Positions 7,235 through 28,470 of a DNA stretch of 64,000 bases are shown here, in pieces (within the stretch, counting starts at the first letter, position 1; every line of letters begins with the position of its first letter). Under the pieces are notes generated by a model. It was not told the origin of the DNA. It worked only from the letters and a program-made list of their open reading frames with translations, and did not search any database. Source of the stretch: Haloarcula sp. DT43 (GTDB taxonomy: Archaea > Halobacteriota > Halobacteria > Halobacteriales > Haloarculaceae). A program made the translations under genes and the position numbers. The stretch is taken from positions 372,001-436,000 of the forward strand of contig NZ_JAYMGZ010000001.1 in NCBI RefSeq assembly GCF_037078405.1, in the 5' to 3' direction.

Positions 7235-7342
7235 GCGGGACCGCCGAGAGTGGGAGCGGCAGTCAGTCACAGAAAAACTCGCTCACGGCTCACGTCGTTC
7301 GCCGTTCGCGCTCGAGGTTCTCACGCCGCTCGAACCTCACGA

Positions 7343-7364
7343 CGCCAGGACTGGGATTTGAACC
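7343..7364 (-). repeat. partial copy of the tRNA-Ser 3' end
   Basis: These 22 bp are identical to positions 7497-7518, the discriminator, acceptor and T-arm end of tRNA-Ser(GGA), in the same orientation. They lie 154 bp from the tRNA. Such 3'-end copies arise when integrases recombine at tRNA genes, so this may be an attachment-site scar. Confidence 0.75.
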
Positions 7365-8355: not shown

Positions 8356-9567
8356 TCAGACCAGCACGTCGACCTCGTAGCCCTCGTCGGCGAGCGCGTC
8401 GAGGAGCGCGTCGACGTGGTCGGGGCCGCGGGTCTCCAGGTCCAGTTCGACCTCGGCGGAACTCATCGCCACGTCGCGGTTGGTCCGGTCGTGCTCGATG
8501 CCGTAGATGTTGACCCGCTCGCGCGTGAGCACCTCGACGAGTTCCTCCAGCGCGCCCGGCCGGTCCTGGAGGACGGTCCGTATCCTGAGGTAGCGGCCGG
8601 TCTCGACGAGGCCGCGAATGATGACGTTGGTCAGCGTGTTCAGGTCGATGTTGCCGCCACACAGCGCGGGGACGATTGTCTCGCCGTCCGCGAAGTCGAA
8701 CTTCTCCTCGGTGACGGCGGCCAGCGCGACGGCCCCCGCGCCCTCGGCGAGGGTCTTCGAGCGTTCGAGCAGCGTCGTCAGCGCGACGGCGATTTCCGAG
8801 TCCGACACCGTCACCACCTCGTCGACGCGCTCGCGGATGACCTCGAAGGTCTTCTCGCCGACGGTGCGGGTGGCGATGCCGTCGGCGATGGTCTCGACGC
8901 TGTCGCGTTCCACGCGGTGGCCCTTCCGTAGGGATTCAGCCACGCTGGACGCCCCCTCGGCCTGGACGCCGACGACCCGGATGCGCTCGTCTTTCCCCTC
9001 GAGCGCCGTCGCGATGCCGCTGATGAGGCCGCCCCCGCCGATGGGGACGACGACCGTGTCGACGCCGGGGAGGTCCTCGTATATCTCCAGGCCGATGGTC
9101 CCCTGGCCCGCCATCACCCGCTCGTCGTCGAAGGCGTGGACGTAGGTCCGGCCCTCCTCGCGTTCGAGTTCGTGTGCGCGTTCGGCGGCCGCGTCGTAGT
9201 CCCGGCCGTGGAGGACCACGTCGCCGCCGTAGCTCCGGGTCGCTTTCACCTTCGACACCGGGGCCCGTTCCGGCATCACGATTTTCGAGTCGACGCCGAT
9301 TCGCGTGGCGGCCAGCGCGACCCCCTGGGCGTGGTTGCCGGCGCTCGCCGTGACGACCCCGGCGTCCCGCTCGGCGTCCGAGAGCGACGCGATGCGGTTG
9401 GTCGCGCCGCGTATCTTGAACGAGCCCGTGCGCTGGAACAGTTCGAGCTTGAGATGCACGTCTGCGCCCGTCATCGCCGAGAAGGTGTGCGAGTAGTCGA
9501 GCGGCGTGTGTCTGGCCGTTTCCGAGACGGTGTCCTGTGCCGCGAGCACGTCCTCAAACGAGAGCAT
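8356..9567 (-). CDS. ilvA: threonine ammonia-lyase with ACT domain
   Basis: The 403-residue PLP enzyme deaminates threonine (and probably serine) to 2-oxobutyrate, feeding isoleucine synthesis or catabolism. RTGSFKIRGATN holds the Schiff-base lysine (residue 51), ASAGNHAQGVA binds the substrate carboxylate and VVPIGGGGLISGIA the phosphate. An ACT regulatory domain covers about residues 325-403 (LRIRTVLQDRPGALEELVEVL). The start at 9567 gives the family-typical MLSFEDVLAA; the much longer open frame upstream is not coding-like. One short ACT domain is the arrangement of the catabolic or archaeal type rather than the long biosynthetic one. Confidence 0.93.
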   Translation of the reverse strand: MLSFEDVLAAQDTVSETARHTPLDYSHTFSAMTGADVHLKLELFQRTGSFKIRGATNRIASLSDAERDAGVVTASAGNHAQGVALAATRIGVDSKIVMPERAPVSKVKATRSYGGDVVLHGRDYDAAAERAHELEREEGRTYVHAFDDERVMAGQGTIGLEIYEDLPGVDTVVVPIGGGGLISGIATALEGKDERIRVVGVQAEGASSVAESLRKGHRVERDSVETIADGIATRTVGEKTFEVIRERVDEVVTVSDSEIAVALTTLLERSKTLAEGAGAVALAAVTEEKFDFADGETIVPALCGGNIDLNTLTNVIIRGLVETGRYLRIRTVLQDRPGALEELVEVLTRERVNIYGIEHDRTNRDVAMSSAEVELDLETRGPDHVDALLDALADEGYEVDVLV

Positions 9568-9849: not shown

Positions 9850-11484
9850 ATGGACACCTGGCTGCGGCGGACGCTGGTGTATCTCGTCGCGCTCGCCGGC
9901 ATCATTCTCGGCTACGCCGTCGCCTACGACTACGGGATGGCGACGTTCGAGAACAACCCACAGCCGTTCCTCCGGTCGCTCCGGGTCGTGGTCGAGACGT
10001 TCACCACGACCGGCTACGGCTCCGACGCGCCCTGGAGCACCACGGAGATGCGGCTGCTCGTCATCGTGATGGACATCACCGGCGTCGTCCTCATCTTCCT
10101 CGCGCTGCCGGTGTTGCTGTTTCCGCTGTTCGAGGAGGCGATGGAGACGACGGCCCCGAACACGGTCGAGAACGGGCTGGACGACCACGTCGTCATCTGC
10201 CAGTTCTCGCCCCGGGGCGAGACGCTCACGGCCGAACTCGACACCTGGGGCGTCGACTACATCGTCGTCGAACCGGACCGGGACCGGGCCAACGACCTCT
10301 ACGAGGAGGGGTACGACGTCATCCACGCCGACCCACAGTCCGTCGACGGACTGGAGCGGGCGCGCCTGTCCTCGGCCCGCGCGCTCGTGGCCGACGCCTC
10401 CGACCAGGTCAACACCAGCATCATCCTCACCGCCCGCGAAGTCGACGAGTCCGTCCAGACCGTCAGCGTCGTCAAGGAGCCCGACCGCGCGAAGTACCAC
10501 GACCTCGCCGGTGCCGACGCCGTCCTCTCGCCGCGGGGGCTGCTCGGCGAGAGCCTCGCGAGCAAGGTGACGACCGGCGTCTCGACGACGCTCGGGGACT
10601 CAATCGAAATCGGTGAGGACTTCGACATCGCCGAACTCCCGATTCACCGCGGGAGCGACCTCGTCGGGACGACCCTCGCGGACAGCGGCATCCGCGAGGA
10701 GACCGGCGTCAACGTCATCGGCGCGTGGTTCCGCGGCCAGTTCGTGAGCCCGCCCGACCCAGACGCCGAACTCGACGGCAGCACGGTCCTGCTGGTCTCG
10801 GGCACCGAAGGGCAACTGGAACAGCTCAAGGAGTTGACCCTCTCCAGCGTGCGCGGCTTTCGCCGCGGGGAGACGGTCATCATCGGTGCCGGCGAGGTCG
10901 GCCAGACCATCACGTCGGCGCTCACGGACGCCGACGTGCCGCACACGGTGCTCGACCGGAACGACGTGCCCGGCGCCGACGTCGTCGGCGACGCCACGGA
11001 GCCCGACGACCTGCGACACGCCGGCGTCGGTGCGGCCAGGACGGTCATCCTCGCGCTCTCGGAGGACACCGACACCGAGTTCGCGACGCTGGTCATCCGC
11101 GACCTCAATCCCGACGTCGAGGTCATCGCCCGCGCCGAGGAAAGCGAGAACGTCCGGAAGATGTACCGCGCGGGCGCTGACTACGTCCTCGCGCTGTCGA
11201 CGGTCAGCGGCCGGATGCTCGCCTCGACGATTCTCGAAGACGAGGACGTCATCTCGATGGACCAGCAGGTCGAGGTCGTCCGCGTCGCCGCCGACGGGCT
11301 CGGGAACACGACGCTCGGCGACGCCGACGTCCGCTCGCGGACGGGCTGTACAGTCGTCGCCATCGAACGCGACGGCGCGGTGCTCACCGACCTCGGCCCC
11401 GACGCGACCATCGAGCCGACCGACAGGCTCGTCATCGCCGGCACCGACGACGGCGTGACGCGGTTCCAGTCGCTGTTCGGCTAG
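9850..11484 (+). CDS. K+ channel with two RCK (TrkA) modules
   Basis: The 544-residue protein combines a minimal K+ pore and two regulatory modules in one chain. Helix 1 spans about residues 8-27, the selectivity filter is TTTGYG at residues 52-57 and helix 2 spans about 68-93. The first RCK/TrkA-N module begins near residue 112 and is followed by a TrkA_C unit; the second begins near residue 338 with VIIGAGEVGQTI, followed by another TrkA_C. The first module reads VVICQFSPRGETL where a GxGxxG loop is expected, so it may not bind nucleotide. It probably mediates gated K+ flux, important for salt-in osmoadaptation. Confidence 0.92.
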   Translation: MDTWLRRTLVYLVALAGIILGYAVAYDYGMATFENNPQPFLRSLRVVVETFTTTGYGSDAPWSTTEMRLLVIVMDITGVVLIFLALPVLLFPLFEEAMETTAPNTVENGLDDHVVICQFSPRGETLTAELDTWGVDYIVVEPDRDRANDLYEEGYDVIHADPQSVDGLERARLSSARALVADASDQVNTSIILTAREVDESVQTVSVVKEPDRAKYHDLAGADAVLSPRGLLGESLASKVTTGVSTTLGDSIEIGEDFDIAELPIHRGSDLVGTTLADSGIREETGVNVIGAWFRGQFVSPPDPDAELDGSTVLLVSGTEGQLEQLKELTLSSVRGFRRGETVIIGAGEVGQTITSALTDADVPHTVLDRNDVPGADVVGDATEPDDLRHAGVGAARTVILALSEDTDTEFATLVIRDLNPDVEVIARAEESENVRKMYRAGADYVLALSTVSGRMLASTILEDEDVISMDQQVEVVRVAADGLGNTTLGDADVRSRTGCTVVAIERDGAVLTDLGPDATIEPTDRLVIAGTDDGVTRFQSLFG

Positions 11485-18544: not shown

Positions 18545-18616
18545 GCCTGGGTAGCTTAGCGGTAAAGCGCGTCCTTGGTAAGGACGAGACCCCGGATTCA
18601 AATTCCGGCCTAGGCT
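18545..18616 (+). tRNA. tRNA-Thr(GGT), integration site of the element
   Basis: The gene starts GCCTGGGTAGCTTAGCGG, has anticodon stem-loop CGTCC-TTGGTAA-GGACG (anticodon GGT) and T-arm CCGGATTCAAATTCCGG, closing CCTAGGC, which pairs with the 5' strand with one G-U. Its 3' part from position 18567 is duplicated at 28429, marking it as an integration target that stays intact. Confidence 0.96.
18567..18608 (+). repeat. attL copy of the 42-bp repeat
   Basis: This segment runs from the D-arm end through anticodon and T-arm of tRNA-Thr. It is identical to 28429-28470. Beyond it the copies differ (CCTAGGCTT here, TCGAGGCTT at the other end). Confidence 0.93.
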
Positions 18617-18800
18617 TAGCGGGGTTACACGGTTTCTCTCCCCATTTTACGCTGCTCTTATGAAAGAAACCAATGGTACTCAAGAACGCGCCCTTTTACT
18701 ACACGGGCACCCCGACGCCGTCTTGCGATTCGTATAGTTGTCAGGACACTATAAAATCCGCCACCTCGCCGTACAGCGATTCGAGTTTGGAGGATGGTCT

Positions 18801-19994
18801 ATGAACCCGACTGACCCCCTCGACAACCTCGGCGGTGGGGACACGATGAGCGGGGAGATTCCACCCGCACCCGAGGACTACGAGTTCACCTACCCACTCG
18901 TGAGCCGACGCTCCGAGGAAGACCTCGGGGAGTTCGGGATGAATATGGTGGACGACTACCGCGACTTCAAGCACGAACTCCTGTCGTGGCTCGCTCACTA
19001 CGGAAAGCACCCCGAGAAGCGCGAGGGGCTGGCAGACTCGACGCTCGAATCCACCCACTACAAACTCGAAACTGCGTTCCGTTGGCTGTGGCAACACGAG
19101 AACCAGTACACCACCTCGTTCACGCCCAACCACGCAGACAAGTTCATTCGCGTGCTGAACCAGTCGAAGGGGATGATTGACTCGACGGTTCTTCACCACG
19201 CGAAGGACATTAAGCGACTGTTCAAGTTCTACAACCACGCGCGTGGGAAGGACTACGAGTGGGACGTGGAGGTGGAACTCTCACAGTCGAACGGTGGGGA
19301 CGAACGCGACTACCTCCGACGTGCGGCGTTCGAGCCGCTGTATCAAGCCGCGCTCGAATACTCCTCGGTCAAGAACTACCATTCGGTGACACCCGAGGAG
19401 CGTGACCGGCTCAAGATATTCGTCTCACAACGACTCGGTATCCCGAAAGAGAAGGTTGGCCCTGAGGAGTTCAAAGAGGCGAACTCGTGGAAGTACCCCT
19501 CGATAATAGCGACCACGCTGGACACCGGACTCCGACCCATCGAAGTCGGACGCGCGAAAGTCTCGTGGGTGAACTTGGAGGATGAGGAGTTGAACATCCC
19601 AAAAGACGAATCCACCAAGAACGACGCAATCTGGAACTGTTCCCTCAAGAGCCGGACGGCGAAGACATTGGAGCGGTGGCTCGATGAGCGCGCGTCTCTC
19701 ACCAAGTACGACGACCGAGATGAGTTATGGCTCACGCAGAAAGCAACACAGTACGGGTCGAAGTCGTGTAACGCTCTGCTCCAGCGACTCATCGAGAACG
19801 GGGACGTTCCGATTCCCGAACACCAAGACGTGACCTTCTATTCCATTAGGCACGGAACGGCCACATATTGGGCCAACCACGTCGGGCCACACCACGCCCG
19901 CGAACAACTCAGGCACTCATCGCTCCAGACAACGATGAAATACCTACACTCGGACGCGGAAACGCGCAACAGCGCGGTGGAACAAATCTGGTAG
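18801..19994 (+). CDS. tyrosine recombinase / integrase
   Basis: The 397-residue integrase catalyses excision and insertion at the tRNA-Thr site. The SAM-like core-binding domain spans about residues 50-150 and the catalytic domain about 175-397. Catalytic residues seen are Arg245 (TGLRPIEV), Arg350 in SIRHGTAT, His372 in RHSSL and the nucleophile Tyr381 (MKYLH); the usual His of the HxxR box is Tyr347. The ATG at 18801 is chosen because GGAGG lies 7 nt upstream; a longer frame to 18738 lacks such support. It is the first gene after the tRNA, pointing into the element. Confidence 0.92.
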   Translation: MNPTDPLDNLGGGDTMSGEIPPAPEDYEFTYPLVSRRSEEDLGEFGMNMVDDYRDFKHELLSWLAHYGKHPEKREGLADSTLESTHYKLETAFRWLWQHENQYTTSFTPNHADKFIRVLNQSKGMIDSTVLHHAKDIKRLFKFYNHARGKDYEWDVEVELSQSNGGDERDYLRRAAFEPLYQAALEYSSVKNYHSVTPEERDRLKIFVSQRLGIPKEKVGPEEFKEANSWKYPSIIATTLDTGLRPIEVGRAKVSWVNLEDEELNIPKDESTKNDAIWNCSLKSRTAKTLERWLDERASLTKYDDRDELWLTQKATQYGSKSCNALLQRLIENGDVPIPEHQDVTFYSIRHGTATYWANHVGPHHAREQLRHSSLQTTMKYLHSDAETRNSAVEQIW

Positions 19995-19999
19995 GTCGG

Positions 20000-20227
20000 T
20001 CACTCAATCGGCGGTCGTAGGTCACGCCAGCGAAAATCAGCCGTCTCCTCATTTTCGAGTTCGACGCGAAAAATCACGTCGTCCCGTTCGTCGCCGGTCA
20101 CTTCCCCGGCTTCGTCTTCCAGCACGTCCACGACCGTCCCGTGTAGCCCGTGGTATCGTTCGTGGTCGGGGTCGGTCGCATCAGGTATGTCCACCCGCAC
20201 GCGGTCGCCCGTGGTGAATCTGCTCAT
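20000..20227 (-). CDS. small basic/acidic beta protein of the element
   Basis: The 75-residue product begins MSRFTTGDRVRVDIPD and reads as a small SH3- or KOW-like beta barrel: GDRVRVDIP, HGLHGTVVDVLED and DVIFRVELENEE are successive strands, ending WRDLRPP. Such folds bind nucleic acid or proteins. It is the last of four leftward genes and ends 5 bp past the integrase stop. No close named family is recognised. Confidence 0.7.
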   Translation of the reverse strand: MSRFTTGDRVRVDIPDATDPDHERYHGLHGTVVDVLEDEAGEVTGDERDDVIFRVELENEETADFRWRDLRPPIE

Positions 20228-20239
20228 TCGCGTTGTAAC

Positions 20240-20253
20240 GCGATGAGGCGGGG
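20240..20253 (+). repeat. GATGAGGC motif, copy A
   Basis: GCGATGAGGCGGGG lies in the 32-bp gap between two leftward small genes and is preceded by the tight palindrome CGCGTTGTAACGCG (20229-20242). It is one of five similar motifs confined to the gaps of the element. Confidence 0.6.
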
Positions 20254-20259
20254 GCGAAG

Positions 20260-20412
20260 TTAGTCCTTCCTGACCTCCGTCCACTCGCACCCACACGCCT
20301 CACAGGTGTAGTGTTCCTTTGTAACGGTCGGCTCGTCCTTCTCGAACATCCACACGTCGCTGTCATCGCCACAGCGCGGGCACGGTTCCTCTGTCTTCCA
20401 AGCGACGGGCAT
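20260..20412 (-). CDS. 50-residue zinc-ribbon protein of the element
   Basis: MPVAWKTEEPCPRCGDDSD opens the product, which has CPRC and CEAC(GC) knuckles 23 residues apart, followed by EWTEVRKD. This is a zinc ribbon of the type in small haloarchaeal proteins on plasmids and proviruses. It is the third gene of the leftward small-gene cluster and ends 32 bp before the next start. Function unknown. Confidence 0.75.
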   Translation of the reverse strand: MPVAWKTEEPCPRCGDDSDVWMFEKDEPTVTKEHYTCEACGCEWTEVRKD

Positions 20413-20416
20413 CGGA

Positions 20417-20539
20417 TTACTCGTCGCGCTCCTTTCGCTGTTCTATCTCTTGCTCATAGACCCGGTCGGGGTCAGGTTCCGTCTCGGGGTCGCTGTCCCC
20501 AATATCCCCGAGGTGTGCGGGGTCGCGTTCAAGAGCCAT
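20417..20539 (-). CDS. 40-residue acidic peptide of the element
   Basis: The product starts MALERDPAHLGDIGDSDPE and ends in a charged helix (YEQEIEQRKERDE). Its ATG overlaps the stop of the upstream SWIM gene by one base (TAATG), and its own stop is 4 bp before the zinc-ribbon start, so it is very probably translated by coupling. No family is recognised; coding support is the packing and halophilic composition. Confidence 0.6.
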   Translation of the reverse strand: MALERDPAHLGDIGDSDPETEPDPDRVYEQEIEQRKERDE

Positions 20540-21072
20540 TATCGTTCCTCCGGTAACTCGTAGCACGCAAAGCAGGGAAGTGAATCAGCGTCCGGCCCCG
20601 GACACCACTCCTCGCCGTTCGGACACTCGCGTTCGGCTTCGATGAGGGCGGGCGTGTCATCGCGTGTGTCCTCGGGAGATTCAAACGACTCCCCGGCTTC
20701 CTCACCGACGACACCCCCATCTGTTACGGCGCGAACGGGGCTTCGAGCGGTTTGTAGCCCGAGGTGGGAATCTATCGCGTCGGTGTCGGCCCACAACGGG
20801 ATGGCCGTCTCCCCGGTCGCGTAGTGAACACGTCGCTCGTGTTTACATCGTTCATCGGATTCGAGATTGTAGTGCGCGTCGGGACAATCGCATCGGCCCT
20901 CGCGTGTGTCAACGAGGTATTCCGAGCCGCTTTCCGAAACAACGAGGTACAGGTCATCAGCACCTTTCACTCTCCCCGTCTCGGGAAGGACGGTCATCTT
21001 CTCGGTCAGCGCACGAACGGCTCGCTTCGGCAGGTCGGTGGGGTTTTCACCCGTTGGATTGCTACGTTGCAT
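20539..21072 (-). CDS. SWIM zinc-finger protein of the element
   Basis: The 177-residue protein has a SWIM motif, CDC at residues 61-63 and CKH at residues 76-78 (CxC-x12-CxH), within YLVDTREGRCDCPDAHYNL. SWIM fingers bind DNA or protein. A C-terminal cysteine-rich segment (CPNGEEWCPG and CFACYEL) may form a second zinc site. Similar SWIM proteins are frequent on haloarchaeal proviruses and plasmids. The start at 21072 avoids a longer N-terminal tail without halophilic bias. It heads the four-gene leftward cluster, divergent from the winged helix gene. Confidence 0.8.
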   Translation of the reverse strand: MQRSNPTGENPTDLPKRAVRALTEKMTVLPETGRVKGADDLYLVVSESGSEYLVDTREGRCDCPDAHYNLESDERCKHERRVHYATGETAIPLWADTDAIDSHLGLQTARSPVRAVTDGGVVGEEAGESFESPEDTRDDTPALIEAERECPNGEEWCPGPDADSLPCFACYELPEER

Positions 21073-21163
21073 TGGCTTTCTGGCACCACAGAAGGCCACC
21101 GTCCGGCGCTCCAACGCCGGGCGTTTTCCGAACTCCACGCCCCGAGGGAGGCGACCTTCTCAC

Positions 21164-21252
21164 CTATTCCTACGACGGTACTTGTGATAAGTCTTCCCGT
21201 TGTATCTCGAAGGAATAGGAGAAAACCTATCCCTCGCCCGCGTGTACGTACA
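21164..21252. promoter_or_regulatory. divergent control region of the element, with inverted repeats
   Basis: CTATTCCT at 21164-21171 is matched by its inverse AGGAATAG at 21211-21218, and a perfect 10-bp palindrome TGTACGTACA lies at 21243-21252, 3 bp before the winged helix ATG. The region separates the leftward SWIM cluster from the rightward regulator, so these may be operators for that regulator. Binding is inferred, not shown. Confidence 0.5.
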
Positions 21253-21255
21253 ATT

Positions 21256-21495
21256 ATGACCAACGACACATCCCGTCCGCGAGGAGAGGGGGGAGAGTAC
21301 GTAGAGGAGATAACTCCCGAGGATGCCCTCGCGGTTTTCACAGACAACGAACCACTCACGGCGAAAGAAGTCGCGGAAGAACTCGGCGTAGTTCGACGGA
21401 CAGCCTACAACAAATTGGACAAACTCAAAGAACGGGGCGACCTCCGAAAGAAGAAGGTCGGCTCACGAGCAGTAGTCTGGTGGCGACCGGAGTGA
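21256..21495 (+). CDS. winged helix-turn-helix regulator of the element
   Basis: The 79-residue protein has an acidic N-terminal arm and a DNA-binding wHTH: PLTAKEVAEELGVVRRTAYNKL as the helix-turn-helix and LRKKKVGSRAVVWWRPE as the wing. It resembles small archaeal MarR- or TrmB-like DNA-binding units. The ATG is 3 bp after a 10-bp palindrome, suggesting it controls itself and the divergent cluster. Its role in controlling the restriction gene 1.5 kb away is possible but not shown. Confidence 0.8.
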   Translation: MTNDTSRPRGEGGEYVEEITPEDALAVFTDNEPLTAKEVAEELGVVRRTAYNKLDKLKERGDLRKKKVGSRAVVWWRPE

Positions 21496-21512
21496 GCAAA
21501 CGAATCAAGAGC

Positions 21513-21526
21513 GCGATGAGGCCGGG
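21513..21526 (+). repeat. GATGAGGC motif, copy B
   Basis: GCGATGAGGCCGGG lies 17 bp after the winged helix gene. With its downstream AAGTT it resembles copy A. Confidence 0.6.
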
Positions 21527-21607
21527 CGTAAGTTCTGCGGTGGGTTAGAATCCATCAGAACCTTAGGGATATTGAAGTACACAGCAGAACCCCACACTTA
21601 GCCTCTA

Positions 21608-21623
21608 TCCCCGCCTCATCGCA
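21608..21623 (-). repeat. GATGAGGC motif, copy C (inverted)
   Basis: On the minus strand this reads TGCGATGAGGCGGGGA. Together with copy B it forms an inverted pair about 80 bp apart. Confidence 0.6.
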
Positions 21624-22255
21624 CCCCAACTTGTGAACTACACTACGGTCGGCGCGCGCCGGTTAGCACACGCGGGGCCGAAGCGCGCACACAGTATAGT
21701 TGCCCCGTGAGAGAAATTTCTCTATCAGAGATGCAATTTGGGGGTTCACACGCCTCGACACCGCTTCGACAGGAGAGGAAATGCGAGAGAGATAACTCTC
21801 GACAAACTCCCGATTTTTCGACATAGCGAGTCTGGAAGACCTGAGTCTATGGGGCCTACAAGAACGCGCAAATTCACCTTCTTGTGCCTACGTAAGTTTG
21901 CTCCTGAGCGGCCCGGGGACGTGGTGCAGGAGTTAGAGTGAATAATATAATAAATATTGGATATTAAGAAATCTGTTATTTTTGTTTATCGCTCTCCTCG
22001 ATGCGTTTACCACCTCTCGGGGAAGCGCGACGAGGGGCGCGGAGGTCGGGCCGAACGTTCACGGCTATACTCAACGTGTTGCAAGACAGTTCGCCAATCT
22101 ACGGGGGATTACACAAGAAACCACCAACTCGTGTAGACACTCTCCATAGGTTACACTCACATAGTCCAGATTAGAGTTAGCATCACAGGTCTATACTGTG
22201 GGCAATTCACATTTCAGTTCAAGTAGTTCAACTCACAGCAAAGATTTGGTACGAA

Positions 22256-22271
22256 TCCCTGCCTCATCGTA
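22256..22271 (-). repeat. GATGAGGC motif, copy D
   Basis: On the minus strand this reads TACGATGAGGCAGGGA. It shares its TAC start and following CGT.CC with copy E. Confidence 0.55.
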
Positions 22272-23045
22272 GATAAACTTACGAATGAAACATAGGTAGC
22301 CTCACTCTATAGTGGCCCATTAGATGCACCACATCGCAGGGCGCACGCGTGGGGCGTGCCGCAACACGACCAGAGAGGGCGTGCCACAATCGCGTCTAAG
22401 CCCACTCAGCCATACGACAAGTTGCTGTGGATGTTTGAGGCACCGAGGAAGGGGAAGTATCCTCTCGGTCGAAAGATTGTCTCAGGAACGACACAGTACC
22501 ATCTGGAGAGATTCTCACCGATGCGCTTGGAGCGAGGACGATGCGTAGTTCGACACCCCTGACTCCCCACCCATCTTCTCGTCAATCCTAAGCACTCTGA
22601 TAAGCCGGTGGGCAACTTTCGTGGGTGGCTGAATACCTTTCATCAAAGAAAAATGAAACCGCGTAGGGAGCCGCACAGAGCGTCCTGTGACAGAGTGATT
22701 TCAAGCCGATTTCGGGGTAAATCAGGAACACCACCGAGAGCCACCGATTGAGTGGGGTGAGAGAAGCCACCTGTGGCCTCATACGAACCGAGAGGGCGTT
22801 TCTGATAACTCCGAGAGGGATACATCATATCAAGAAAATAAACCGCTCTACGAGCCTGCTCTGCGTTTCGGGTGCTGTCAGTAGGAACCCAAGGCCCGGA
22901 TTCGTGAAATCCAGAGGTGATAATTTACTAAATTTATCTGGTATTTTTGGCACTATTCACTATTTGCTTATGTATTTTCAAGTCATTTGCCCCTCATCTC
23001 GCAACTCACTCACCTTTTTGACGAGTGAACGAATGGAACTGATTA

Positions 23046-26000
23046 ATGCCGGACTCCTCCGCTCTCCACGACTCCATTCGTTCGATTGCCGAACAAACGG
23101 ACGAAGATATGAGCGAGCGCGACGTAGAGAATCTGTTTCTGGAACGCGGCTTCTACGATGCGCTCGACTACGAGGGAACAGGAACCGACCTCCGAAGCGA
23201 GTTTACACTTCCCGACGACCGACGCCCGGACTACATCACTCTCGACTCGAACGAAGCCGTGACTGCGGTGTACGAGTTCAAAACCACCGGGCGCGACCTC
23301 CCACCTCACGAATCGCAACTATTCGGGTATATGGAGTTCTTGCGGGCTGAGTACGGGGTTCTAACCAACGGCGAGGAATTACGCCTCTATCGACGCGGCG
23401 AAGACCGCCCCCTCATCGCGGCGTCGATGGCGTCGATTACTGAGAGTGATGCCCGCGACCTCGTGAGTGCGCTCCAGAAACGCGAGTTCGACCTCACGAG
23501 TGCCGACGACGTGAATCAGTTCCTCGAAGACCTCGACCCCATTCCGCTGGACGAACAAGCGGAACTCGGACAGGAACACTTCTTCGACACCTTCCGGCTC
23601 GAAGAAGGCAGTCCGTTCGCCGACCTCGTGACGGGGCTAATGGACTTGCTCGAAGAACTCCGCGATGAGCAAGAGGCGAAGTTCGTCAAGGGGGCCTACG
23701 ACTTTTGGGAAGCGACCTACGCGAGCGAGCCGGACGAGGTACCAGATTCGTGGGAGCCGTTTATAGACGGGAATCAGTCGCTACGGGACTTTATGTTCTG
23801 TCTCGAAAGCGGCCACGCCCTCCTCGCGCGGCTCCTCTTGGCGAAGGCCACGGAAGACCACGACTTCTTCGCCGGTACCGGCTACGAAGGGATGGACGAC
23901 TACTTCCGAGGCTTACAGGGCTTCGGTCAGAGTATCAACCTTGACGCGTTCCCCGTCGCCGCCGACAACCTCATCGACGATATGCAGGAGCAGTTAGTTG
24001 AAGGGCTGTTCCAAGACGACATTTTCGTGTGGTGGACTGACGGCTACGCGGAAGAAATATCGCGGGGACACGAGACTGGTGCGAGTCAGTTCGAGGCCGT
24101 GGCGACTGGTCGCGGTGATGAGGGCGGCGTGACCCGTATCAGTGAAGCCACCCGCAATCGCTTCAGCCGAGCCGTCGCAGAGGTCTTCTTCAACGTACTA
24201 CGGTTCGACTTCGCCGACGTAGAAGGCGACCTCCTCGGCGACCTCTATCAGCGGTACTTCGACCGGGAAACCCGAAAAGCACTTGGAGAGTTCTATACTC
24301 CACAGCCGGTGGTTGACTACATTATGGATGGAGTTGGGTACGAGCGTGGTGTCTCGAACGAGCGCCTTATCGACCCGTCCTGCGGGTCTGGAACCTTCCT
24401 TGTCGAAGCCGTCGAGCGTTATATACAAGAGATTGAACGCTATGAAGACGACCCAAACTGGAAAGAACACCTCCAAGACCTCTGTACCCGCCCCCGCGTC
24501 GTCGGACTCGACATTCACCCCTTCGCCGTCCTGATGGCACAGATTCGGTTCGTCGTCGCAATCCTTCCCGCCTACCGCGAAGCGAAGCAGTCCCATCCCG
24601 ACTACACCATTCGACGGCTCCCCATCTACCGGACGGACACCCTACGCAACGAGCGTGAACTGACCGGGGCCGACCTCGGCGACGACGGCTCCCGACAGAT
24701 GACTTTCGACGCGATGACCGAGGACGAGCAGGACGTGAGGATTCCCGTTCCACTTCCCGTGGAAGTTGATGAAGATGAAGCCGCCGAGACGGAAGATGGG
24801 TTCCTCGTCCGTCGCGTTCGGATGCCGCTGTTCGATACGATTCAATTGGAGACGGGTGTGAACAACTTCGGGGAGTATTTCGCGGCTCTACAAGGGGTAC
24901 TTGACACCGTCAAAGACCATATGGCCCTCGCGGAGGAGTTCGGTGGCGACTTCGATTGGACGTACCAGAGCGGCCTTGAGGAACGAATCAACCAACACAC
25001 CGAACGGGAATATTCGGGCGTGGAGGAGTTCTTCGCCCCTTACGTTGATGATATGCTTGAGAACGTTCGGTATCTCAAGGAAGAACACAACGACGGGCGG
25101 CTGTTCAAGATGTTCGAGGACACCGTGCTGGCGCTCGTCGTGAAGAACTATATGGAGTACGACTACGTCGTAGGCAATCCCCCCTATGTTCGTGTCCAAC
25201 ACCTTCCCGACCGGCAGAAGGAGATGCTTGACCGACTCTATGATTCCCCCTCTGGAAACTACGACATTTACTGTGTTTTCTACGAGCGTGGGCTGGAGTT
25301 TCTGAAAGAGGAAACGGGGAAACTAGGATACATTACCTCAAATCAATTCCTGCTAACAGACTACGGTGAAGGAATCAGACGCGTACTGCTTGAAGAAGCG
25401 GCGATTGAAGAAGTATATGATTTCAGAGATTCGGGTGTCTTTGAGGACGCCGCTAATCTCCCGGTGATTCTCTTTGCTCGTGATGAGCCGGATGACGAAG
25501 TACGACAAGAAAACCAGATTCGATGTTCCCGAGTCAAATCCAACATCACCGAACATAGTCAGAATAGACTTGACGAGGAGGTTGTCGAATCCATACGTGA
25601 ACATCGAGACGAATCGAGATATAGTGACCAGTACATCGATATTTTTGATTTCCCTCAAACGAAGTTAGATTCCCAATTCTGGTCATTAATGCCACCCGAG
25701 GAGTTGGAGGTCTTCGAGAAGTTAGAGAGACAGCAAAATTCCACATTAGGCGAAGTGACAACATCTATCTCCTCGGGGACTCAGACAAGTGCAAATAAGG
25801 TTTACATCGTTATTCCACAGGATGCAGACCGAATTGACCCGTCGGATTCTGGTGAAACTGTTACTGTAGTTCCCCTTGGTGAGGAGCAGGAGTATGAGAT
25901 TGAAACAGACTTACTCAGACCGTGGTTACAGGGTATTGATGTTCAGCGGTGGCGTGGGGATTGGGCAGGTCAGCACGTAATATTCCCATATCATATAGAA

Positions 26001-26963
26001 GAAAATGAAGACGGTGAACCAGACCCACAACTCTATCAGAAAGAAGAACTGAGTGAACAGTTCCCAAAAACGTGGGACTTCTTTAAGGAATTTGAAAATA
26101 AACTCCGAGGGCGAGAAGGAGGAAGATGGGAGAACAGCGATGTGTGGTGGGAGTTCGGCAGACCTCAGAACTTAGAGAAGTTCCGGCTACCAAAAATAAT
26201 CAATGCAGATATGGCTGGAAATGCTCGATTTATGATTGATGAGAAAGGTGTGTGGCATTTCAAAACACCCTATGGAATATATCTTGAATCTGACTTACAA
26301 TCGAAGACAGAACGTGTCGCCTGTCTCGTCAATTCCAAAACTTTGGACTTCTACCTCAAACATATCGCCCCGATGCTATTAGGCGGAAAGTATCGGTATC
26401 AGTCCCGCTATCTTGAAGAACTCCCATACGCGGATATACGAAGTGGAGACATACCGGAACGCCTCGATGAGGCTGTTAAGCCGATTTTGAACGCTCTGGA
26501 TACACAGAACAAGACTGGCAGATTCCCTGAGGCCTACCTCGGTGACTTCGACGGCGAACTCGACTACATCACCTACGAGTGGCAGACGCGTCGGTATCCA
26601 GTCAACGCCGAAGTGCAGGGAGACGTGGAGGGCGACTTCACGGTACAGGCAGGACGGTCGGACGTAATCAACGACCCTGCGATGTACTCCGACGACCGTG
26701 AGGCCCGGAAACGCCGCGCCGAGTACGTCCACGCCGCCGTGGATGGTCGCAACGTCAAGAGTGGTGAGGAAACGACCATTCCCATTCCCCGGAGTGACGA
26801 TGGCGTTGAGGAACTGCTGAGCCGTCTCGATGACGACCGCGATGAGGTGGCGGCAACGAACATCGAGGAACTGGAAAGAGAGATTGACGACGCCGTATAT
26901 GACCTGTTTGACCTGACCGAGGACGAGCGCGAGGTCGTGGAGGACTACCTCGAAGTGTTCTGA
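23046..26963 (+). CDS. single-chain restriction-modification enzyme (type IIG-like)
   Basis: The 1305-residue protein combines nuclease, N6-adenine methyltransferase and target recognition. A PD-(D/E)xK-type nuclease site is near the N-terminus: PD at 61-62 and EFK at 77-79, followed by YGVLTNG at 103-109. A helical linker leads to the methyltransferase: motif I DPSCGSGTFL from about residue 443 and motif IV NPPY at 711-714. The target-recognition part is about 880-1160, then a C-terminal acidic coiled coil. It should cut foreign DNA lacking its own methylation mark; the recognised sequence is unknown. DNA encoding about residues 735-1150 is AT-richer than the rest of the gene. Confidence 0.9.
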   Translation: MPDSSALHDSIRSIAEQTDEDMSERDVENLFLERGFYDALDYEGTGTDLRSEFTLPDDRRPDYITLDSNEAVTAVYEFKTTGRDLPPHESQLFGYMEFLRAEYGVLTNGEELRLYRRGEDRPLIAASMASITESDARDLVSALQKREFDLTSADDVNQFLEDLDPIPLDEQAELGQEHFFDTFRLEEGSPFADLVTGLMDLLEELRDEQEAKFVKGAYDFWEATYASEPDEVPDSWEPFIDGNQSLRDFMFCLESGHALLARLLLAKATEDHDFFAGTGYEGMDDYFRGLQGFGQSINLDAFPVAADNLIDDMQEQLVEGLFQDDIFVWWTDGYAEEISRGHETGASQFEAVATGRGDEGGVTRISEATRNRFSRAVAEVFFNVLRFDFADVEGDLLGDLYQRYFDRETRKALGEFYTPQPVVDYIMDGVGYERGVSNERLIDPSCGSGTFLVEAVERYIQEIERYEDDPNWKEHLQDLCTRPRVVGLDIHPFAVLMAQIRFVVAILPAYREAKQSHPDYTIRRLPIYRTDTLRNERELTGADLGDDGSRQMTFDAMTEDEQDVRIPVPLPVEVDEDEAAETEDGFLVRRVRMPLFDTIQLETGVNNFGEYFAALQGVLDTVKDHMALAEEFGGDFDWTYQSGLEERINQHTEREYSGVEEFFAPYVDDMLENVRYLKEEHNDGRLFKMFEDTVLALVVKNYMEYDYVVGNPPYVRVQHLPDRQKEMLDRLYDSPSGNYDIYCVFYERGLEFLKEETGKLGYITSNQFLLTDYGEGIRRVLLEEAAIEEVYDFRDSGVFEDAANLPVILFARDEPDDEVRQENQIRCSRVKSNITEHSQNRLDEEVVESIREHRDESRYSDQYIDIFDFPQTKLDSQFWSLMPPEELEVFEKLERQQNSTLGEVTTSISSGTQTSANKVYIVIPQDADRIDPSDSGETVTVVPLGEEQEYEIETDLLRPWLQGIDVQRWRGDWAGQHVIFPYHIEENEDGEPDPQLYQKEELSEQFPKTWDFFKEFENKLRGREGGRWENSDVWWEFGRPQNLEKFRLPKIINADMAGNARFMIDEKGVWHFKTPYGIYLESDLQSKTERVACLVNSKTLDFYLKHIAPMLLGGKYRYQSRYLEELPYADIRSGDIPERLDEAVKPILNALDTQNKTGRFPEAYLGDFDGELDYITYEWQTRRYPVNAEVQGDVEGDFTVQAGRSDVINDPAMYSDDREARKRRAEYVHAAVDGRNVKSGEETTIPIPRSDDGVEELLSRLDDDRDEVAATNIEELEREIDDAVYDLFDLTEDEREVVEDYLEVF

Positions 26964-28103
26964 TTACTCTGCCCCGTCATCGGATTGCCACTCGCACAAA
27001 AACTCTATAGTTAGCCCAACTTCCTCTGTAAGGTCACGAAGACGAGTCTCCTTACCTGTTGTATTGAGCGAGGTGTGAAGGAAATAGCCGTTCGTCAGTT
27101 CGTATGGGCGTCTCATCTCCTCGCCGTTAGGGTGTACTGGTTCGTTGTTGATAGAGCAGTTCTTCCGGGCGCGAGGTGGAAAGTGCGGAATTTCGAGTTC
27201 ATCAATCAGGTTGTACTCCTCTATCAGAAAGTCCACCGCCGCGCCCATATTCTCCTTCTGCTGTGTCTGAATCTCTGTACTATCTCTTGGTATAATCGTG
27301 CCATCAGAGAATCGCACGACGTAGCCCTGTCTATCCTTAATTTCCCCTCCGTCGTCATTGGGTGATGTACTGACTGCTTGTTGTGGATTCGCGCCGTCAT
27401 CTACATTTTCGGAGGGTTTCTCACTTACAAAGTGTCGCTGTTCACGGAGTATAGAGACAAGATTCTGCACGAACTCCCGAGATTGTCCCTCAAGGTCTAT
27501 GGTGAGTTCTCCAACATCACTCTCCACCGCTTCAGTAACGGACTTGGTAATGTTGTCTTCGTTTTCTTGCAGATAACGAATTGCCCGATTCGTCTGCGCA
27601 ACCTGCTCGGCTATTTCGTCGGATTTTCCCGACCGTATCGATTCCTTGGTCAGAAGTTCCAACACGTTCGGGTTCTCGGCGAGGTCATCGAGGTCAAATT
27701 GAACGACAGATACCTCCTCACCGCCGTTCTGGTGGCGGTTTTTTGTTAATACCTCAAAGGACTTCCCGTTAGTCAGAATCCCCCAATCCACATCCAGTTC
27801 CTGTCTCATATAACTCCGCAACTGTTGCACTTCGCTATCTGTGAGTGTGGCGCGAACTGGTTTGGCTTCAACGAAGGCTACTGGTGAATCGCCCACAAGG
27901 AGAGCGTAATCAACGTGTGTACTGCCCGATGCCATTGGGACTGTGTACTCCAGCGCAACTTCGGTAGAGTAGAGATTCCAGCCAAGAAGTTCGAGGAACG
28001 GCTGAACGAGTTTAACCTTCGTGTTTTCCTCGTCCATTTGCGGTGATGACTCAATGAGTTGCTGACACCGCTGGACATATTCGCTAATTTCGTCCCTTTC
28101 CAT
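26964..28103 (-). CDS. HsdR-N-like nuclease-domain protein
   Basis: The 379-residue protein has an N-terminal PD-(D/E)xK-like domain: HVDYALLV gives Asp65, VEAKP gives Glu79 and Lys81, followed by WGILTNGKSFEVL at 107-119. This resembles the N-terminal domain of type I R subunits, without any helicase part. A linker (residues 180-280) leads to a C-terminal domain ending in a strand-helix unit (GYFLHTSLNTTGKE and TIEFLCEW) that I do not recognise. The ATG at 28103 is preferred; GTG or ATG at about 28202-28205 would extend it. It ends 1 bp from the end of the convergent restriction enzyme. A defence role is inferred. Confidence 0.8.
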   Translation of the reverse strand: MERDEISEYVQRCQQLIESSPQMDEENTKVKLVQPFLELLGWNLYSTEVALEYTVPMASGSTHVDYALLVGDSPVAFVEAKPVRATLTDSEVQQLRSYMRQELDVDWGILTNGKSFEVLTKNRHQNGGEEVSVVQFDLDDLAENPNVLELLTKESIRSGKSDEIAEQVAQTNRAIRYLQENEDNITKSVTEAVESDVGELTIDLEGQSREFVQNLVSILREQRHFVSEKPSENVDDGANPQQAVSTSPNDDGGEIKDRQGYVVRFSDGTIIPRDSTEIQTQQKENMGAAVDFLIEEYNLIDELEIPHFPPRARKNCSINNEPVHPNGEEMRRPYELTNGYFLHTSLNTTGKETRLRDLTEEVGLTIEFLCEWQSDDGAE

Positions 28104-28428
28104 TACAAGTCTGTGCGTAACGAGTGGTTTTAAAAGATGGTGTAAACGGAACAGATTCGTGAGGAAAGGTTCTGATTCACTATCCACACCGACGCTAAAC
28201 ATCACGAGATGTTACTCCGATACACTCGGAACGTCTCGCCGCCTCATCGTACCGGATTGTTTGTTACGCCACTCTAATTAGCGAAACAGACTGGTCTTGG
28301 TTCGGCATATGCGGGTCTAACCGGGTGTTCTTTAAGTGTGGCATTAGTATGACCTCGTAAGAGCAGTCGAAGTGGGAAGATAACCGGCAAATTCCCCCTC
28401 AAAACGCCTGATTCAGGGTAGCGGCCCT
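28104..28428. other. right-end gap of the element
   Basis: These 325 bp hold the likely promoter of the leftward nuclease-like gene, copy E of the GATGAGGC motif (28237-28250) and sequence leading to attR. No gene is supported apart from a possible longer N-terminus of the nuclease gene. Confidence 0.5.
28237..28250 (-). repeat. GATGAGGC motif, copy E
   Basis: On the minus strand this reads TACGATGAGGCGGC, about 190 bp from the right end of the element. It closely resembles copy D. Confidence 0.55.
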
Positions 28429-28470
28429 GCGCGTCCTTGGTAAGGACGAGACCCCGGATTCAAATTCCGG
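28429..28470 (+). repeat. attR copy of the 42-bp repeat
   Basis: The segment is identical to 18567-18608 but is not a functional tRNA: the 5' half is missing and the acceptor strand reads TCGAGGC instead of CCTAGGC. It marks the right border of the element. Confidence 0.93.

Follow-up and report, generated by a model that had tools for sequence, protein, structure and literature searches.

What is the stretch of about 9.9 kb that lies between an intact tRNA-Thr(GGT) gene and a partial copy of that gene in the haloarchaeon Haloarcula sp. DT43, how does it move, and where does its integration machinery come from? The locus was analysed in a window of 64,000 nucleotides of genomic DNA, to which all positions refer unless another locus is named. 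The explanation preferred here, and very probably the correct one, is a small cargo-swapping integrative defence element that moves by a hafunavirus-type tyrosine recombinase and that shares, and competes for, the attachment site of the hafunaviruses.

Insertion site and attachment repeats

The element (18567-28470) sits in a tRNA-Thr(GGT) gene, which it recreates at its left end, and is bounded by an exact repeat of the tRNA sequence. Exact identity extends over 42 bp at most (18567-18608 and 28429-28470), with no third copy in the 64 kb; when mismatches are allowed, the att repeat reaches 61 nt at 90%. The site is made up as follows.

18545-18616, plus strand: intact tRNA-Thr(GGT) at the left end (attL), identified with ARAGORN and Rfam
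18570-18586, plus strand: inverted-repeat anticodon stem CGTCC-TTGGTAA-GGACG, the probable crossover region, from the extent of the repeat and the anticodon arm
18617-18800, plus strand: left arm of the attachment site and integrase leader, from an alignment, with the blocks CGCCGTCTTGCGATT and TGTCAGGACAC.ATAA common to elements and viruses
28268-28428, no strand given: right attachment-site arm, shared at about 70% with the G258 element and in part with viruses
28429-28470, plus strand: attR core, the second copy of the 42-bp repeat, from the repeat search

The corresponding site was found empty in two genomes of the same genus (G007 and G011), where the tRNA runs straight into the sequence that follows attR in the window. 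A query made of the joined flanks spans the join in both G007 (90.5%) and G011 (89.4%). Because of these empty sites the 42-bp repeat is taken as an attachment pair, and a chance repeat is ruled out. In this region of 9.86 kb, GC content per kb is 0.48-0.61 in most of the element, 0.58-0.65 in the edge windows and roughly 0.64-0.74 outside. The locus thus combines a tRNA-derived att repeat, an integrase gene and an empty site in relatives, the marks of a tRNA-integrated integrative element. An earlier note on this DNA had described the exact 42-bp tRNA-Thr copy at both ends, a recombinase gene starting 184 bp from the intact tRNA and a GC content below that of the flanks; these are borne out by the repeat search, the ATG at 18801 and the per-kb GC values respectively. 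Comparison with related genomes, which the same note had suggested as a check, yielded the uninterrupted tRNA-Thr of G007 and G011. Its reading of the locus as a likely defence-bearing integrative element is supported by the att pair, the integrase, the restriction-modification cargo and the empty sites.

Elements and viruses have an invariant core in common, with the anticodon stem-loop at its centre, and the inverted-repeat geometry of this core suggests that crossover takes place in the anticodon loop. An alignment of six elements with five viruses or proviruses revealed att blocks common to both on either side of the core, for example TGTCAGGACAC.ATAA upstream of int; the conserved blocks of the left arm would be Int arm sites or promoter sites. 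Just past the core of attR, the 3' acceptor has drifted to TCGAGGC from the CCTAGGC of the tRNA. Two such changes fit a copy that selection no longer maintains, and they indicate that integration here was not very recent. The element may be fixed in its host.

Genes carried by the element

The element carries the following genes and intergenic region.

18801-19994, plus strand: tyrosine recombinase (integrase), 397 aa (PF00589, E 3.7e-15; R, R-H, H and Y motifs seen by eye)
20000-20227, minus strand: small L21e/SH3-like protein, 75 aa (domain and homology searches)
20260-20412, minus strand: zinc-ribbon protein, 50 aa (73% identical to the HSTV-3 Zn-finger protein gp42)
20417-20539, minus strand: small acidic ORF, 40 aa, no assigned family
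20539-21072, minus strand: SWIM-like zinc-finger protein, 177 aa, frame open to 21138 (phrog_17897, E 6e-33; SWIM CxC...CxH seen by eye)
21256-21495, plus strand: winged-HTH regulator, 79 aa (domain search)
21496-23045, no strand given: low-GC stretch of 1.5 kb in which no convincing gene was recognised; parts of it are conserved upstream of the IIG gene in other elements
23046-26963, plus strand: Type IIG restriction-modification enzyme, 1305 aa (Eco57I, N6_Mtase, TaqI_C and HSDR_N domains)
26964-28103, minus strand: HsdR_N-type PD-(D/E)XK nuclease, 379 aa, frame open to 28205 (PF13588 (HSDR_N_2)/PF04313)

The domain searches confirm the restriction enzyme, second nuclease-like protein and small zinc proteins that the earlier note had listed, and no replication or virion gene was detected in the element, as it had likewise stated. 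A longer frame of the integrase, with a TTG start at 18738, is also present, and the integrase is otherwise absent from this genome (3.75-Mb assembly). The L21e/SH3-like protein is shared with HSTV-3 (65%), Hdep-prov1 and several sibling elements. Relatives of the SWIM-like protein occur in most sibling elements and in the BJ1 and Humcor1 viruses, and those of the winged-HTH protein in 7 of 40 IIG loci. A Lar-like anti-restriction identity for the 50-aa zinc protein was rejected on a score below the cut-off.

Patches of the 1.5-kb region are 68-93% conserved upstream of the IIG genes in three other loci (L125, L126 and L128). An Rfam search detected no RNA besides the tRNA, this region included; it may hold RNA or regulatory sites. 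The motif CBGCCTCATCGYR occurs in five intergenic copies, at 20239-20251 (minus), 21512-21524 (minus), 21611-21623 (plus), 22259-22271 (plus) and 28239-28251 (plus). It is found nowhere else in the 64 kb and once in 565 kb of control loci. Each of five IIG loci that lie beside other tRNAs in other haloarchaea (L125-L129) has two to four copies, and the copies often stand at cassette borders.

The IIG enzyme unites an N-terminal HSDR_N-like nuclease, an N6-adenine methyltransferase and a TaqI-like specificity domain in one protein with intact motifs, the architecture that defines Type IIG; the motifs PD..EFK of the nuclease and DPSCGSG and NPPY of the methyltransferase were seen by eye. Its identity is 64% to the IIG of HF2 and up to 83% in other haloarchaea, and 18 of the 19 viral records that it matches do so at 60-80%. 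Assignment as a BREX PglX was rejected, since the BREX-2 PglX model gave 141.6 bits against a cut-off of 400 and the element is without brx genes. The earlier note had held that the same genes at unrelated sites without the repeat would speak against an integrative element. This objection does not apply: IIG relatives are present at other sites, but a tRNA lies within the fetched region in 28 of 40 chromosomal IIG loci, and in 16 of the 40 the IIG gene is flanked by a tRNA (Val, Ala, Glu, Thr, Leu, Gly or His) on one side and its partial copy on the other, the weakest copy being 16 nt long. Beside the tRNA-Ala of L125, at 10291-10353 of that locus, a 21-aa C-terminal integrase remnant is 95% identical to the window integrase. 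This remnant sits in an IIG element and adjoins L21e-like and zinc genes; judged by that identity, it is a sign of past recombination.

The HsdR_N gene is convergent with the IIG gene. In a class-wide search its relatives were found in 195 of 391 halobacterial genomes, at a distance of at most 4 kb from IIG in 6 of 40 loci and at most 1.5 kb from a tRNA in 11 of 20 loci. The nuclease part of the protein, which spans roughly residues 35-262 of the long frame, is conserved at 70-87% among the window and L164-L183, and at least three unrelated kinds of C-terminal domain replace one another in different haloarchaea. These C-terminal types had no match in Pfam or PDB, nor had the whole protein a match in PDB, and a structure from a single-sequence AlphaFold model was set aside as unusable (mean pLDDT 39). 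From this pattern of conservation, the protein appears to pair a nuclease with exchangeable domains for sensing or targeting.

Sibling elements, hafunaviruses and alternative explanations

Relatives of the integrase, counted at E <= 1e-120, were found in 17 of 391 sampled halobacterial genomes. Where the far end is resolved (G019, G024, G180 and G277 are left out), the spans from tRNA to partial copy measure 9.9 (the window), 11.5, 12.4, 13.0, 13.4, 16.1, 18.1, 20.7, 26.6, 27.3, 30.6 and 32.8 kb, with one large span of 77.7 kb, in G308, that is a full provirus. Members of the family, which spans many haloarchaeal genera, have in common the left end with the integrase and, in part, the right end with small backbone genes. 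The cargos, from sibling genes called by a simple ORF script rather than a gene finder, are these.

Halopiger element: Type I restriction-modification and HsdR_N nuclease
Natrinema element: another IIG and a DUF4268 protein, with relatives of both in G036
G258 element: ApeA and HsdR_N
G104 element: IIG and an oligonucleotide cyclase (CBASS)
G142 element: DISARM-like methyltransferase and SNF2/PLD helicase; G116 likened to it by gene size alone
G322 element: Type I restriction-modification; G196 likened to it by similar frames alone
G277 element: IIG/DrmMI-like protein
G024 and G347 elements: what look like epimerase or membrane (surface or metabolic) genes, judged from first residues only

Defence does not look like the sole cargo of the family, at least two siblings (G024 and G347) appearing to carry other genes. 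The G277 sibling also has a DUF5906 protein that may serve replication. In G019 (L194), a second full tRNA-Thr(GGT) (7278-7349) is followed 1.5 kb on by a partial copy (8803-8860) and then by a thioesterase gene, which likely reflects elements that stand in tandem or were split at this one site. Two tRNA-Thr copies stand 93 kb apart in G010:C1 (1324828-1418143), with a 42%-identical integrase, and a large element or provirus is possible there.

Over 1,446 bp at the left end and 451 bp at the right, the Natrinema and Halopiger elements are 97.9% and 96% identical respectively; their middles differ, and their host flanks are just ~70-76% alike. Near-identical ends in different genera and with different cargo indicate that transfer and cassette swapping were recent. 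Such movement of close relatives between genera, together with the intact integrase, IIG and HsdR_N frames, makes a locus that has lost its mobility, either a plasmid derivative or a static genomic island, an unlikely explanation, to which the want of a replication gene, the drifted attR acceptor and the lack of the integrase elsewhere in the genome would otherwise point.

The integrase is ~70% identical over its full length to those of tailed viruses of the Hafunaviridae (HF1, HF2 and HRTV-10), and it matches 49 Hafunaviridae-type records full length, most of them at 60-80%. A tRNA-Thr(GGT) remnant lies between integrase and IIG in HF2, HRTV-10, HRTV-9 and HSTV-3; the viral remnants have blocks of 32-38 nt in common with the host tRNA, and the HF2 record annotates its remnant as 'probable attP'. 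HF1-group viruses use a tRNA-Thr attP and form proviruses there, and the variable methylase region beside attP, MDR-C, was suggested to have been captured from host chromosomes (PMC7230728). In HSTV-3, zinc (73%) and L21e-like (65%) genes lie beside IIG. The small defence elements and the viruses appear, from these sequence comparisons, to share one docking platform and some cargo. Two points go beyond the earlier note: by homology, hafunaviruses share the integrase, the attachment site, the IIG and two of the small genes, and the same integrase family is found to bear many different cargos.

An attachment site, arms and integrase family that are the same as in the viruses could also belong to a true hafunavirus satellite, which would leave the chromosome upon infection and travel in virus particles, and the small size, the interference-type cargo and the element ends near-identical across genera would suit one. 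This explanation is distinctly improbable, as no counterpart of the virus's packaging, capsid-remodelling or regulatory genes was found, the sizes are spread evenly from 10 to 33 kb, and no small element bearing this integrase turned up in viral contigs. Small genes of unassigned family aside, none of the element's genes is homologous to HF2 genes for structure or packaging. Viral contigs scanned for IIG and for HsdR_N gave no relative of either.

In the integrase tree, the viral integrases form one clade (100/100) within the element radiation, the window integrase lies outside it, and the clade joining the viruses to the window group has support of 100/98. Holding the elements as one group apart from the viruses was rejected (AU p = 0.008, with the test groups chosen after the tree was seen). 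Given the long outgroup branches and this late choice of groups, it is likely rather than shown that the viruses took the module from the elements. In the IIG tree, the virus IIGs fall outside the chromosomal clade of the window, with two separate entries into viruses. Since the window IIG is not closest to a virus IIG and at least two viral entries occurred, the virus was not the direct donor of this IIG module.

The full provirus in G308 matches Hdep-prov1 (PMC7230728) by size and content, and has the HF2 TerL, portal, protease, MCP, sheath, tube, tape measure, baseplate, PolB, RNR and ThyX at 66-94%; the small elements had no match to any of these. The element of the window has the integrase and attP of the Hafunaviridae, and its search for virion genes (TerL, portal, MCP and sheath) gave no match, with G308 matching as positive control. 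A decayed hafunavirus provirus, stripped of its virion and replication genes but retaining int, attP and the defence region, is highly improbable even though the integrase, att arms, IIG, zinc and L21e genes are in common with viruses and a full provirus occupies the same site in G308, because no small element holds a virion or replication remnant, the viral integrases nest among those of the elements with the elements-apart grouping rejected, and the siblings have backbone genes of their own with intact, differing cargos.

Proposed mechanism and comparison with known systems

For the preferred explanation, a small defence element moving by a hafunavirus-type recombinase, the integrase would recombine at the anticodon stem-loop with the aid of flanking arm sites, integrating and excising a circle. 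The IIG enzyme, to judge from its class, would methylate a single motif in the DNA of both host and element and cut unmodified incoming DNA. The HsdR_N nuclease would contribute a second cleavage or sensing activity, and the winged-HTH and zinc proteins would regulate. Because HF1-group viruses share attB and have an integrase 70% identical to that of the element, the two would compete for attB and may recombine there and exchange cargo, and the virus integrase may mobilise the element. Candidate routes between cells are mating or cell fusion, transduction and packaging by virus. Virus-mediated mobilisation, with the virus as helper in a satellite-like manner, is a plausible rather than a proven possibility. 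A more far-reaching and tentative proposal, which is rather improbable, is an archaeal counterpart of phage satellites, in which a hafunavirus integrase would excise the element via the shared att, the virus would aid its spread, the cargo would block competitors for tRNA-Thr, and MDR-C would be stocked by exchange.

If the preferred explanation is true, one integrase family, one tRNA site and exchangeable cassettes provide a concrete route along which defence genes pass from archaeal chromosomes to tailed viruses and back. The variable methylase region that adjoins attP in HF1-group viruses would then have a possible explanation, whether archaeal viruses have satellites could be tested on viruses and hosts already to hand, and the att-bounded family would supply a means of finding archaeal defence systems.

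The class of tRNA-borne defence islands is known already; new, as far as the surveyed literature shows, are the definition of a cargo-swapping family of small non-viral elements and the platform that it has in common with a family of viruses. Hafunaviridae (HF1, HF2, HRTV-10 and HSTV-3) and Hdep-prov1 are like the element in integrase, attP with its arms, and IIG, Zn and L21e-like genes, which adjoin attP. They differ in size (~75-78 kb against 9.9 kb) and gene order, the element is without virion, PolB, RNR and ThyX genes, and the window IIG belongs to a chromosomal clade. The restriction-modification islands of Halorubrum ezzemoulense are similarly low in GC, contain integrases and lie in many cases near tRNAs, but in the available part of that report they are not linked to a virus integrase family or to att-bounded cargo-swapping elements (PMC11078007). 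P4-like satellites and defence hotspots are likewise small integrative elements with variable antiviral cargo (PMC9122126); in contrast, the window element is archaeal and has no identified helper-hijacking gene. Tycheposons and tDNA genomic islands also combine a tyrosine recombinase, a tRNA site and exchangeable cargo (PMC10872708, PMC4383910), whereas the integrase and cargo of the element come from the haloarchaeal virus sphere and are defence-heavy. The haloarchaeal type IIG restriction-modification enzymes, including HVO_A0006, have the same N-terminal PD-(D/E)XK nuclease, adenine methyltransferase and specificity domain (PMC4389544; see also PMC6471742); unlike them, the window IIG lies in an att-bounded element, beside a second, HsdR_N-type nuclease with a swappable C-terminus.
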